This document shows, in pieces, positions 1,377 to 5,358 of a DNA stretch of 42,805 nt. The position numbers were made by a program, and so were the translations under genes. Under the pieces are notes generated by a model. It was not told the DNA's origin. It was given only the letters and a program-made list of their open reading frames with translations, and ran no database searches. Location: contig CAMFDU010000010.1 in assembly GCA_945949175.1 (NCBI GenBank), forward strand, positions 1 through 42,805. The letters run 5' to 3'. Positions within the stretch are counted from its first letter, which is position 1; each line of letters opens with the position of its first letter. The stretch comes from Gulosibacter massiliensis (GTDB taxonomy: Bacteria; Actinomycetota; Actinomycetes; Actinomycetales; Microbacteriaceae).

Positions 1377-1460
1377 TTACTGACAGGATTCGCACTGAAG
1401 CAGATCCATGGGATCTACCGGTACCGAATATTCTCCTACGTGAGAGTCGAGCGGATTCAT
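1377..1460 (-). CDS. 27-codon frame encoding the missing CESC tail of NrdA
   Basis: The frame starts with ATG at 1458-1460, overlaps the nrdA TGA as ATGA, and ends DPMDLLQCESCQ then TAA. Its sequence looks like the normal NrdA C-terminus, where a swinging CxxC or CxxxxC pair re-reduces the active site. In nrdA proper no such cysteines are present. The frame is offset by -1 from nrdA and has its own TGA six bases upstream of the ATG, so a frameshift would have to fall within about ten bases. GGTGA just before the ATG could pair with the anti-Shine-Dalgarno, allowing termination-reinitiation. The alternatives are a single-base assembly error or a genuine frameshift. That it encodes the redox tail is likely; how it is expressed is unknown. 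Confidence 0.55.
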   Translation of the reverse strand: MNPLDSHVGEYSVPVDPMDLLQCESCQ

Positions 1461-3925
1461 GATTCACCGCCCGTCGACGACGATCCACCGAAGCCGAAGC
1501 CTCGTCGGGGTGCGCCAGCCGCAACGGGTTCTGCTGCGGGTGACGGAGCGCCGGCGCTAGAGCCGAAGCCCTTATTGTTTCCTCCACTGATTTCTTCGGC
1601 CTTGTTGACCTTGACCGTGGACTGTTCCGCGGTGTGGCGCGGCTTCATGTGTAAGTAGTAGGTGGTCTTGACACCCCGAGTCCACGCGCCCGTGTAGATA
1701 TCGACCATTTCGTCGATGTCACGGGTTTCGAGGTACATGTTGCGGCTGATGGCCTGGTCGATCCACTTCTGAGCACGACCTGCAACCTCGAGGAACGAAT
1801 TGGGGTCAAGTTGGAAACTGGTCTTGTAGATCGCCTTGATGTCGTCCGGAATCGAGGCAATGCTCTGGATGTCACCTTGCGAACGGAGGATGTCCTCGCG
1901 AACCGACTCCCATAGCCCGCGGTCGGAAAGTGCATCAACGAGGTTACGGTTCACTTCGAGGAACTTTCCGCTGGAGGTAGAACGCGAGAAGATCTGTGAG
2001 AACTGCGGGTCGAGACCGGGGGTCGTTCCGGCAACGAGACCGATGGATGCGGTCGGGGCGATGGCCATGAGGGTCGCGTTGCGGATTCCGCCCTTGACCT
2101 TGACGCGAAGTGCATCCCAGTCGAGGCGAGTTTTGCGCGAGATGTCGATTGCGACGCCGCGGTCCTTTTCGGCAAGGTCGATCGAATCAAAAGGCACCAG
2201 TCCCTGTGACCAACGAGAGCCCTCGAAGTTGTCGTACGCGCCGCGCTCGCGGGCAAGGTTCGCCGACTCATCGATCGCCGAGTACGAGATGTGCTCGGTG
2301 ATTTCGTCAATGAGGTCGTAGGCAGCTTCGCTGTCATACGAGATGCCGAGGCGCTCACAAATGTCGGCGAAGCCCATGATTCCAAGCCCAACCGCGCGGT
2401 TTTCTTTGTTCGCCTTGTCGGCTTCGTCCACCGAGGATCGCGTTATATCAATGAGGTTATCGAGCTGGCGAACGGCGACACGGGCGCTTTCATCCATCTT
2501 GACCCAGTCGAATTTTCCGGCGACAAGGTGGGTCGAGAGGTTGATTGAGGCGAGGTTGCAGACCGAGACGTTTTCGGCGTCCTGCGGAAGACAGATCTCG
2601 GTGCAAAGGTTCGACGAATGAATCGTGCCGGTGTTGTTGTTGAGCGCGCGAAGGTTGATTGTGTCTTTCCAGGTCAACCACGGGTGCGACGACGATTGAA
2701 GCGAAATGAGTATTTGCTTGAACTGTTCGCGGGCCGAGATTTTCTTGAAGAGGTTCATCTCTCCGTTTTCGGCCATCGTGATGTATTCGGCGTAGCGCTT
2801 CGAGAACGCTGCGCCATACAGTTCGTTGAGGTCCGTAACCTCGAGCGGGTCGAACAGGTACCAGTCATCGTCGTTCTGGACGCGCTTCATGAACTCATCC
2901 GAGATCCAGACAGCAGTGTTCGCGGTTCGCGTACGACGATACGGGTCACCAGAGTTCTGACGAAGGTCGAGGAATTCGGGGAAGTCGAGGTGCCAGTTCT
3001 CCATGTAGAAGCACAGTGCACCGAACTTCTTGCCGCCGCGCGAAATCGCGCGAAGAACCGAGTCGATGGTGTGCATGAACGGGATCGGTCCCGTCGACAC
3101 GGTGTTGTTGGAACGAATTGGTGATCCTTGTGCGCGAAGTTTGGTGACCGAGAGTCCAATTCCACCGGTTCCCTTGGTGAGCCACATCACGTCACGCGTG
3201 GTCTTGGCAATGTGCTCGATGTCGTCCTGCATTTCGAGGACGAAGCAGTTCGCGAGTTGGGGGTAAGAGGTTCCCGCATTGACGAGGGTCGAACCGGCTG
3301 CCAAATATTCGAGCGTCGACATCTTGCGATAGAAGCGCAGTGCGACCTCGGTGGGGTTCTTCTCGTTGAGCGACAAACCCATGGCGATGCGCATCCAGAA
3401 GTATTGGGGAACCTCGAGCGCGTCACCGTTGCGTCCCTTAACGCCGTAGCGGTTGTTGAGCGTGACAACGCCGATGTACTTAAGTAGTTCGTCGTTCGCG
3501 GGCTCGAGAGCTGCTGCGAGGACGTTGAAATCGAACATTTCGGTCAGACGTGAATCGAGGAGTCCTTCTTCGACACCGCGACGAACATTCGCCTCGAAGT
3601 GTTCGGCGTGCAACTTTTTAAGTTCGTCTTTCGACGAGTAGTCACCGAGCACATTCTTGTAGATAGTCTTCAAGAGCAGGCGGGCCGCGATGGTGTCGAA
3701 TCCGGGGTAGTCCTTGACGTTTTGCAGGGCAACCTGGATGACGGCTTCGTCGAGTTGCTGAGAGGTGATTCCGTCGAACAGCGTCAATTCGAGCTCGGTG
3801 CCAATCTGCGTAACCCAGGCAAGTTTGTCGGGGAATCCTTCGGCCGCGTCTTCGATCGCGAGGTTGATTTTGTTCGCGTCGTAGTTTTCGCGGTTTCCGT
3901 TTCGCTTGACAACCGTGATGTTCAT
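1457..3925 (-). CDS. nrdA: ribonucleotide reductase class I alpha subunit (tail out of frame)
   Basis: This is the catalytic large subunit, 822 aa in this frame. Residues 1-90 form an ATP-cone (VVKRNGNRENYDANKI), the allosteric activity site. Active-site residues match E. coli NrdA: C227 (LANCFVLE) and C456 (VSVCNLAS) as the redox pair, and N439, C441 and E443 in SNLCTEI, with C441 as thiyl radical. Y756-Y757 (TTYYLH) are the radical-transfer tyrosines. The end is a Gly/Ala/Pro-rich linker stopping at TGGES, without the cysteine pair needed for turnover. That pair lies in the overlapping frame at 1377-1460. The start ATG has GAAGGGA upstream. Upstream DNA holds NrdR-box-like and DnaA-box-like sites. 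Confidence 0.95.
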   Translation of the reverse strand: MNITVVKRNGNRENYDANKINLAIEDAAEGFPDKLAWVTQIGTELELTLFDGITSQQLDEAVIQVALQNVKDYPGFDTIAARLLLKTIYKNVLGDYSSKDELKKLHAEHFEANVRRGVEEGLLDSRLTEMFDFNVLAAALEPANDELLKYIGVVTLNNRYGVKGRNGDALEVPQYFWMRIAMGLSLNEKNPTEVALRFYRKMSTLEYLAAGSTLVNAGTSYPQLANCFVLEMQDDIEHIAKTTRDVMWLTKGTGGIGLSVTKLRAQGSPIRSNNTVSTGPIPFMHTIDSVLRAISRGGKKFGALCFYMENWHLDFPEFLDLRQNSGDPYRRTRTANTAVWISDEFMKRVQNDDDWYLFDPLEVTDLNELYGAAFSKRYAEYITMAENGEMNLFKKISAREQFKQILISLQSSSHPWLTWKDTINLRALNNNTGTIHSSNLCTEICLPQDAENVSVCNLASINLSTHLVAGKFDWVKMDESARVAVRQLDNLIDITRSSVDEADKANKENRAVGLGIMGFADICERLGISYDSEAAYDLIDEITEHISYSAIDESANLARERGAYDNFEGSRWSQGLVPFDSIDLAEKDRGVAIDISRKTRLDWDALRVKVKGGIRNATLMAIAPTASIGLVAGTTPGLDPQFSQIFSRSTSSGKFLEVNRNLVDALSDRGLWESVREDILRSQGDIQSIASIPDDIKAIYKTSFQLDPNSFLEVAGRAQKWIDQAISRNMYLETRDIDEMVDIYTGAWTRGVKTTYYLHMKPRHTAEQSTVKVNKAEEISGGNNKGFGSSAGAPSPAAEPVAAGAPRRGFGFGGSSSTGGES

Positions 3926-4009: not shown

Positions 4010-4025
4010 ACACTACATCTATGTG
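4010..4025. promoter_or_regulatory. candidate NrdR box 1
   Basis: ACACTACATCTATGTG matches the usual NrdR palindrome ACACWATATATWGTGT at about 10 of 16 positions. It lies 85 nt upstream of nrdA and 32 bp from box 2, three helical turns, which is the usual spacing of paired NrdR boxes. NrdR represses ribonucleotide reductase operons when dNTP/ATP levels are sufficient. Confidence 0.55.
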
Positions 4026-4041: not shown

Positions 4042-4057
4042 GCCCTATATGTTGTGG
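4042..4057. promoter_or_regulatory. candidate NrdR box 2
   Basis: GCCCTATATGTTGTGG matches the NrdR consensus at about 11 of 16 positions, including the central CTATAT. The pair with box 1, in phase upstream of nrdA, makes NrdR control credible although each site alone is imperfect. Confidence 0.55.
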
Positions 4058-4185: not shown

Positions 4186-5358
4186 ATGAAGCGTTACGGG
4201 CAGTTATTGAGCATCCCAGGTGTCATCCCCGTCGTTCTCGCTCAATTGCTCGCCCGCTTTCCCGGTGGCATGTTGACTATCGGACTTCTGATCCACTATC
4301 AAAAACAAACGGGAAACTTCACGGTCCCTGGACTCACGCTCGCGGCGCTGTCCATCGGCCAAGCGATTTCGATTCCCGTTGCCTCGCGGATGATCAGCAG
4401 GTACGGCATCCGCACGGTGCTCGGCACCCTCATCACAATCTGCACCGGCGCAACGCTGGTGGCAGCCCTCGTTGTCCTCGACACGATCCCGACCATCCTG
4501 CTCGGTTTTGTTATCGGCGCGTCCCTGGCCCCCATCCAGCCCGCCGCCCGCGCCGTGTACCCGTCGATTGTCCCGAAGCGTCAATTGCAGTCGCTACAAG
4601 CGCTCGATGCGAGCGTCCAAGAACTCATCTGGATCGCCGGTCCCGTCATCACCGTTTTTCTCGCCACGCAGATTGATTCGACAACTGCCGTGCTCTCCAC
4701 CATTGTTTTCGGTGCGGGCGGCGGGCTGTGGTTCCTCAGTCGAAAAGAAGTCGGGGCGGCACAGCTCGAACAATCGACAGGGCGACTTGGGTCGGTTTTG
4801 AAAAATCGGGCGGTCATCATCGGTGTCCTGAGCGGATTCCTGGTTGTCGGTTCCTTCGGCGCGATCGAGGCGGGGACCGTCGCAGCGTTCGGCAGTGAAA
4901 AGAACTCCATCGCCGGCATCGTTCTCGGGCTGTGGGCAATGTCGTCGCTCATCGCCGGACTCGCGATGGGTCACACCCCGATGGGTCCATGGTCGTTATC
5001 CCGGCGGCTCGGTATCGTCGCCCTCGGGACCGGGCTCGCGATGTTCACGGTGGATCCGATCCTCCTCACCATCGCGCTGTTCATCTCGGGGTTGGGTGTC
5101 GCGCCAGCCATGACCGTTCAATACGCGATTGCAACCGAATCGGTGTCTAAGGGAAACATTCCCGAAAGCCTCGGCTGGCTTGGAACGGGTTGGGTCGGCG
5201 GAGCGGCTCTGGCCAGCGCCGTCGCTGGCGTGTCGATCGACACGTGGGGCGCCACCGGTGGCTTCGTAGTTGCCACCGTCTTTGCCGGACTTGCCGCTCT
5301 CGTCCCCGCTCTGTTCGTTAAGTCACTTCCAGACCTTCGCCACCTCGCGGCCCACTGA
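4186..5358 (+). CDS. MFS transporter
   Basis: A 390-aa integral membrane protein with about twelve hydrophobic helices in two halves separated by a charged stretch near residues 190-215, the layout of major facilitator exporters. The loop after helix 2 reads ASRMISRYGIRTVLG, a variant of the MFS motif between helices 2 and 3. PIQPAARAVYPSIV in the N-half resembles small-molecule efflux members of the DHA/SET type. The substrate cannot be told. The start at 4186 was chosen because a TAGGCT hexamer lies 7 nt upstream. An in-frame ATG at 4165 would add seven residues (MRRRLAL). It is divergent from nrdA. Confidence 0.88.
   Translation: MKRYGQLLSIPGVIPVVLAQLLARFPGGMLTIGLLIHYQKQTGNFTVPGLTLAALSIGQAISIPVASRMISRYGIRTVLGTLITICTGATLVAALVVLDTIPTILLGFVIGASLAPIQPAARAVYPSIVPKRQLQSLQALDASVQELIWIAGPVITVFLATQIDSTTAVLSTIVFGAGGGLWFLSRKEVGAAQLEQSTGRLGSVLKNRAVIIGVLSGFLVVGSFGAIEAGTVAAFGSEKNSIAGIVLGLWAMSSLIAGLAMGHTPMGPWSLSRRLGIVALGTGLAMFTVDPILLTIALFISGLGVAPAMTVQYAIATESVSKGNIPESLGWLGTGWVGGAALASAVAGVSIDTWGATGGFVVATVFAGLAALVPALFVKSLPDLRHLAAH

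Follow-up and report, generated by a model that had tools for sequence, protein, structure and literature searches.

The window analysed here, a 42,805-nucleotide stretch of Gulosibacter massiliensis DNA (contig CAMFDU010000010.1 of assembly GCA_945949175.1, positions 1 to 42,805), carries on its minus strand a class I ribonucleotide reductase (RNR) locus in the order nrdA, a 27-codon open reading frame (ORF), and nrdB starting at 1316 (Table 1). The small ORF, referred to as the tail gene, is the subject of this report. The nrdA frame ends ...GFGFGGSSSTGGES-TGA, and its translation, also read as ...RRGFGFGGSSSTGGES, has no C-terminal cysteine pair. The redox pair is not on the NrdA chain, which stops after GGES, but on the separate ORF, whose product is MNPLDSHVGEYSVPVDPMDLLQCESCQ (C-terminal part ...YSVPVDPMDLLQCESCQ). 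The C-terminal cysteines of a class I RNR undergo exchange with the disulfide of the active site, and redoxins recharge them (PMC4520616).

The ATP-cone, all-alpha and barrel domains of NrdA were found with Pfam and NCBIfam models. The motifs ANC, NLCTEI, VCNLA and TYYL are intact and align with solved enzymes; we take these to be the active-site cysteines and the double tyrosine of the radical path.

A preliminary description of the locus had stated that the 822-codon nrdA frame stops without the cysteine pair, that the tail ORF overlaps this stop as ATGA with GGTGA ahead of its ATG, and that a TGA lies close upstream in the tail frame. Re-reading of the sequence bore this out: the tail ORF lies at 1377–1460 and the shared ATGA at 1457–1460, GGTGA (1464–1468) precedes the tail ATG, and the TGA (1464–1466) is separated from that ATG by a single ATC codon. 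Three explanations had been offered: a separate tail working in trans, a −1 frameshift that fuses the tail to NrdA, or an assembly error.

Table 1. Features of the nrdA–nrdB region in the window
Feature	Position	Strand	Basis
nrdA, class I RNR catalytic subunit without C-terminal cysteine tail, 822 codons	1457..3925 (including stop)	minus	NF005101 (E=0); Pfam ATP-cone, lgN, lgC
Linked tail-peptide gene, 27 codons + TAA, ending QCESCQ	1377..1460	minus	sequence; separate frame in 76/79 family loci
ATGA junction, nrdA stop + tail start	1457..1460	minus	sequence; same-genus loci
nrdB, radical-generating subunit, 330 codons	324..1316	minus	NF007186; Pfam Ribonuc_red_sm
NrdR-box-like 16-mer CCACAACATATAGGGC upstream of nrdA	4042..4057	minus	12/16 match to NrdR-box consensus; 16-bp spacer to partner
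Second NrdR-box-like 16-mer CACATAGATGTAGTGT of the same pair	4010..4025	minus	10/16 match to NrdR-box consensus

Conservation of the split in Microbacteriaceae

All 13 same-genus loci, the window locus included, have the split, one of them (L003) ending at a contig end inside the tail. Among the 12 junctions that could be classed, eight are the four-base overlap, three (L008–L010) have an 11-base spacer beginning GGAGA between the nrdA stop and the tail ATG, and in the last, L005, ATG follows TAA immediately and in the same frame. The ATGA overlap itself is incidental.

The wider survey of Microbacteriaceae, a family of soil and water bacteria, comprised 79 loci from 79 genomes in 40 genera, namely 60 nrdA 3′ ends and 19 loci from the NrdA search. 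A search of 398 family genomes gave 168 that carry NrdA; the 60 were drawn from these, at roughly two for each genus with listed places. A linked tail was matched in 73 of the 79 loci by a pattern in which [QH]C..CQ-stop was the sole fixed element, and all 73 tails also have [YF]x[VI]PxDPM[DE], a motif outside the pattern. Tails are also present in L052 and L075, with Y or M preceding the first cysteine; together with L003 these bring the final tally to a separate tail frame in 76 of 79 loci. In the remaining three (L061, L062 and L019), no linked tail was found in the nrdA 3′ region. The gene structure thus strongly supports the first of the three explanations, a separate tail, which would act in trans. 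Relatives had been proposed as the check on it, since a continuous nrdA there would speak against a split: no Microbacteriaceae locus read is continuous through the tail. The split is confirmed as real and far beyond chance.

The manner in which the two frames meet varies. With start codons chosen mechanically, linked tails are 21–56 codons long (median 27) in the 73 loci, and the gap between nrdA and tail is −4 in 31 loci, −1 in 20 and 0 to +57 in 18; gaps of −8, −20 and −26 (the last in L016) occur in three loci, all with inner ATG codons. The tail lies in the +2 frame relative to nrdA in 59 loci and in the +1 frame in five; in nine, from seven genera, it shares the nrdA frame but follows a stop. 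An inserted element as the cause of the split was considered and rejected, no more than 57 bases lying between the frames in the 73 loci under the same mechanical start choice.

Close to the end of NrdA, 78 of 79 loci have a motif of the [RK][RK]GF[GA] type (at about 1475–1500 in the window), which was also seen in many relatives with a fused tail. Speculatively, it could be a docking site for the tail peptide.

Unlinked tail genes and NrdR-box-like sites

The window genome has a second tail gene outside the window, at 46206–46286 of contig C4 (product MDFDNDSVGGYAVPVDPMDLLQCDSCQ), with AGGAGG ahead of its ATG and, by simple scans, a promoter-like site and a hairpin terminator. Such unlinked copies were found with a peptide model (alignment A1) and a DNA pattern, 'unlinked' meaning that the fetched stretch has no NrdA match. 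Ahead of 46 of 56 unlinked starts, themselves chosen mechanically, a loose pattern picked out a purine-rich motif resembling a ribosome site. Within the 17-residue core, the 73 linked and 61 unlinked distinct sequences vary mostly at third codon positions; the core codon columns are mostly fixed by the collecting pattern, and the third-base variation is the informative part. This second gene with its NrdR-box-like pair, the three lineages without a linked copy and the phage and plasmid tail genes, all described below, had gone unseen in the preliminary description.

Co-occurrence of tail and NrdA was measured across the 398 family genomes, with cut-offs of 1e-3 for the tail (alignment A2) and 1e-50 for NrdA. 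One or more tails were found in 177 genomes; both genes were found in 168, NrdA alone in none, a tail alone in nine, and neither in 221. The NrdA genomes hold two tail copies in 121 cases, three in 24, one in 15 and four to six in eight. Five or six tail-peptide matches per genome were observed in G078, G089, G162, G180, G213 and G390. When the nine tail-only genomes were searched with the full NrdA query, four showed NrdA fragments; all nine are in at least 70 contigs.

Six of the genomes read (four of genus g75, G173 and G029) have no linked copy, which corresponds to three changes on the NrdB tree, and all six retain an unlinked tail. We read this loss of the linked copy with retention of the unlinked one as an apparent natural complementation, occurring three times. 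Genome G159 additionally has a plasmid copy and a weak chromosomal match, which was rejected as a tail gene, its frame (YFVPLDPMEELGRDCCE) lacking the cysteine pair. At about 300–355 of that stretch (L355, contig C1), ...YFVPLDPMEELGRDCCE-stop lies beside a helix-turn-helix-like frame and may be a mobile copy that has decayed.

The sites of the regulator NrdR are paired 16-bp boxes with spacers of 14–17 bp, and also of 24–27 bp (PMC12051234). Upstream regions of 250 bases (300 for nrdA) were scanned for pairs with 14–17 bp spacers, the threshold being a score above 99% of shuffles. A pair passed this threshold at 72 of 76 unlinked tail genes, among them that of the window genome (L120), and at 16 of 18 nrdA promoters, the two failures being the fused outgroups L018 and L020; at linked tails it did so in none of 29. 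NrdR was present in all five genomes checked. The boxes form a link between the unlinked gene and RNR that does not depend on the peptide sequence, and this gene would be under NrdR control. The arrangement resembles the described NrdR regulon in its 16-bp box pairs with a 14–17 bp spacer, here before nrdA and the unlinked tail gene; a peptide gene of this kind was not seen in the available part of that article (PMC12051234).

The four unlinked genes that failed the box test were L280, L300, L330 and L344. The genomes of L280 and L300 and of L344 hold another, boxed unlinked copy (L292 and L335), and the peptide of L330 is identical to that of a viral contig, L204. The three unboxed genes L280, L300 and L344 share a similar upstream leader, CGCGGCAT.TCCTC...CGGTATTCCACG...GCCG.AAGGC, as if they had been carried by one mobile cassette.

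The NrdA search gave a single place in the window genome and in six same-family genomes with unbroken NrdA. This search does list remote RNRs, a remote match being all that 15 of 22 same-family genomes show, and it gave no second class I or II RNR in the window genome. NrdD was not found in any of five genomes searched. In the genomes checked, the sole RNR appears to be NrdAB lacking a tethered tail; because neither a second class I or II RNR nor NrdD was found, the split enzyme is expected to be the functional one.

Fused tails and mobile copies

In more distant relatives in the order nrdA and tail are continuous, the tail being in frame with NrdA in 20 of 21 loci read. These 21 comprise 19 from 37 other order genomes with NrdA and two more distant loci (L023 and L024). 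The fused tail follows a long linker (example CPVDPMERLQCESCQ), and the free tail VGGVACPVDPMERLQCESCQ closely resembles the fused tail VGGYAVPVDPMDLLQCDSCQ of relatives. In the sole exception, L093, the frame is broken within the linker. Near the tail the nrdA frame looks broken both in this fused outgroup and in L016 of the family, either by error or in reality.

At class level (296 genomes), the tail model matched 17 genomes outside Microbacteriaceae, 16 of them in frames of at least 855 residues whose NrdA is 69–74% identical to that of the window. The 17th, L168, has the one short frame outside the family; it was rejected as a free tail, its frame being cut by a contig end and looking like a fused tail. 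At phylum level (396 genomes), three matches fell outside the family, a long frame in G799 and two partial ones (L353 and L354), in which tblastn gave no NrdA. On a midpoint-rooted tree of NrdB pieces (94 rows), one branch with support 99/97 separates the 17 fused from the 77 family rows, and therefore a single fission at the base of Microbacteriaceae would be the simplest reading.

Tail genes are also found on phages and plasmids. The peptide is encoded in 221 stretches of viral contigs, of which the best 80 were kept and fetched with up to 5 kb per side. The full core and the CxxCQ end are present in 80 of the 80 kept loci, and the fetched stretches contain no NrdA and, in one case (L215), NrdB. 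Matches to named phages were four records representing three phages. In Clavibacter phage CMP1 and Pontimonas phage phiPsal1, an unannotated tail gene stands immediately after the hol/holin gene, and in phiPsal1 the tail ATG precedes the holin stop. In Pseudanabaena phage Pan2 the tail peptide is gene 27. The Pan2 peptide (L263, 5999–6082, MDDFDTIDGFACPNDPADLVSCESCQ) belongs to a phage assigned to a cyanobacterium, while the other tails here are actinobacterial.

The 20 ORFs near the tail were scanned with PHROGs in ten selected viral loci. An endolysin or peptidase match lies upstream of the tail in six (L182, L184, L198, L210, L217 and L224); L213 has a tape-measure family, L188 and L197 have unknown families only, and L219 has no match. 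Phage tail genes near or behind endolysin, peptidase and holin genes (also in L261 and L262) are unexpected for nucleotide metabolism.

Nineteen plasmid records matched (15 Clavibacter, three Leifsonia and one Gryllotalpicola), with E-values up to 1 and a best of 4e-5. Their annotation at the tail is absent or hypothetical, except for one helix-turn-helix protein and one RNR 'subunit beta'. The latter is a 33-codon tail at 4965–5066 of a Leifsonia sp. ZF2019 plasmid (L264), labelled 'ribonucleotide-diphosphate reductase subunit beta'. Neither NrdA nor NrdB was found in three phage and four plasmid stretches of 7–12 kb.

Role of the free tail peptide

In our interpretation, the free tail peptide very probably acts in trans as the dithiol shuttle of NrdA and has become duplicated and mobile. 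In Microbacteriaceae with this NrdA, the redox tail has been cut from the enzyme and would be made as a free peptide, mostly of 21–40 residues, with the core [YF]x[VI]PxDPM[DE]...C..CQ. One gene for it lies between nrdA and nrdB, its start often overlapping the nrdA stop, and a second, unlinked gene has its own probable ribosome site and an NrdR-box-like pair upstream. After each turnover the CxxC of the peptide would reduce the NrdA active-site disulfide in trans, and the peptide would then be recharged by thioredoxin- or NrdH-type redoxins. No other account comes close in simplicity to dithiol exchange in trans, given the likeness to fused tails, the presence of a tail in 168 of 168 genomes with NrdA, and the sharing of the gene by mobile elements. 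Most simply, the phage and plasmid copies would feed the host enzyme. From the genomic pattern we infer that the peptide is translated, binds NrdA and exchanges dithiols in trans, that NrdR controls it, and what the phage copies are for. A stronger proposal, slightly favoured, makes the tail a third, diffusible subunit of class I RNR, an NrdR-controlled pool acting in trans that may be tuned apart from NrdA and that serves phages and plasmids as an auxiliary gene driving host RNR.

Several observations weigh against the interpretation as a dithiol shuttle. No NrdA was found with the full query in five of the tail-only genomes, including G207 and G326, whose completeness exceeds 90%. In L016 (genome G023) the nrdA frame continues past the junction, out of the tail frame. 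The 27-residue peptide has no Pfam or NCBIfam match at 1e-3, and so no recognised redoxin domain. Because C..CQ patterns were used to gather the peptides, part of the cysteine invariance in the alignments follows from the collection itself. Finally, the NrdR boxes were judged by a letter consensus taken as background, and its control was a single-base shuffle.

Of the alternatives, the one that survives best concerns the mobile copies, which could be inhibitors or decoys of the host enzyme. The stretches examined have no NrdA alongside, and the proximity to lysis genes, seen in two named phages and in six of the ten viral loci sampled, is odd for deoxyribonucleotide supply. Nevertheless, retention of the core and CxxCQ end throughout the kept viral loci is expected of an active tail, and we regard inhibition as unlikely.

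Still less probable is a peptide that is tied to RNR in some capacity other than as its active-site reductant, such as allostery, assembly, metal binding or regulation, with a redoxin re-reducing NrdA directly. The redox link comes from genome evidence only, and YxVPxDPMD before the CxxC is about equally conserved and lies outside the pattern that matched the 73 linked tails. The close likeness of the free to the fused tail speaks against such a role.

A programmed −1 shift at the ATGA that fuses the tail to NrdA in the window species would fit the four-base overlap and the TGA close upstream in the tail frame, yet it is very improbable. Such a shift calls for a conserved frame relation and overlap, neither of which is seen across the 73 loci, and GGAGA spacers separate the frames in L008–L010. 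Because nine of the 73 loci have the tail behind a same-frame stop, frameshifting is excluded as the common mechanism. Nor is there an nrdA frame ahead of the unlinked copy, and six genomes have no linked tail at all.

A single base-calling or assembly error splitting a normal nrdA would account for the window alone and can be set aside, the same split being present in 76 of 79 loci from as many genomes, with seven other same-genus contigs showing the identical four-base overlap and others showing junctions beyond any single-base error.

Trans action of a free tail has a parallel in the split NrdJa/NrdJb of Pseudomonas aeruginosa, in which a separate chain mediates dithiol exchange and is needed in vivo (PMC4520616). 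In 2015 NrdJ was called the only split RNR in a non-viral organism (PMC4520616). In both systems the catalytic and the dithiol-exchange chains are separate polypeptides of one operon. NrdJa/NrdJb differs in being class II and adenosylcobalamin-dependent, with a large NrdJb that has folded domains (PMC4520616), whereas here the enzyme is class I NrdAB (its best model is class I alpha, and nrdB lies alongside), the second chain has about 27 residues, and there are an extra unlinked gene and phage and plasmid copies. Phage split RNRs (Aeh1 nrdA-a/nrdA-b and others) likewise have a chain encoded in two pieces, mostly through interruption by introns, inteins or homing endonucleases (PMC3653736); here only the redox tail is freed, no element intervenes, and the split is family-wide in bacteria. 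The fused CxxC tail in other families of the order is similar in sequence and continuous with NrdA, whereas the Microbacteriaceae tail has its own start codon. In Facklamia ignava the electron path of RNR has also been rearranged by gene fission or fusion, there by the gain of a redoxin domain in a glutaredoxin–NrdB fusion (PMC6187632), in contrast to the release of the enzyme's own tail in Microbacteriaceae.

Split class II and interrupted phage RNR genes are mentioned in PMC9669993, PMC9531940 and PMC3653736; a split class I tail was not seen in the available parts of these articles. Nor was one reported among the literature matches listed, as judged from titles and abstract openings, with subscription journals largely outside the search. 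The tail is best read, by analogy, as a possible class I counterpart of NrdJa/NrdJb, reduced to a peptide, duplicated and mobile.

The finding describes a split of a class I enzyme across a bacterial family, in which, for the genomes checked, it is the sole RNR found. In the phage and plasmid records seen, the tail gene is mostly unannotated or hypothetical, which suggests an easily overlooked phage auxiliary gene of about 27 codons. It also makes testable whether the C-terminal cysteines of class I RNR must be tethered, and whether they serve their own active site or that of the partner chain.

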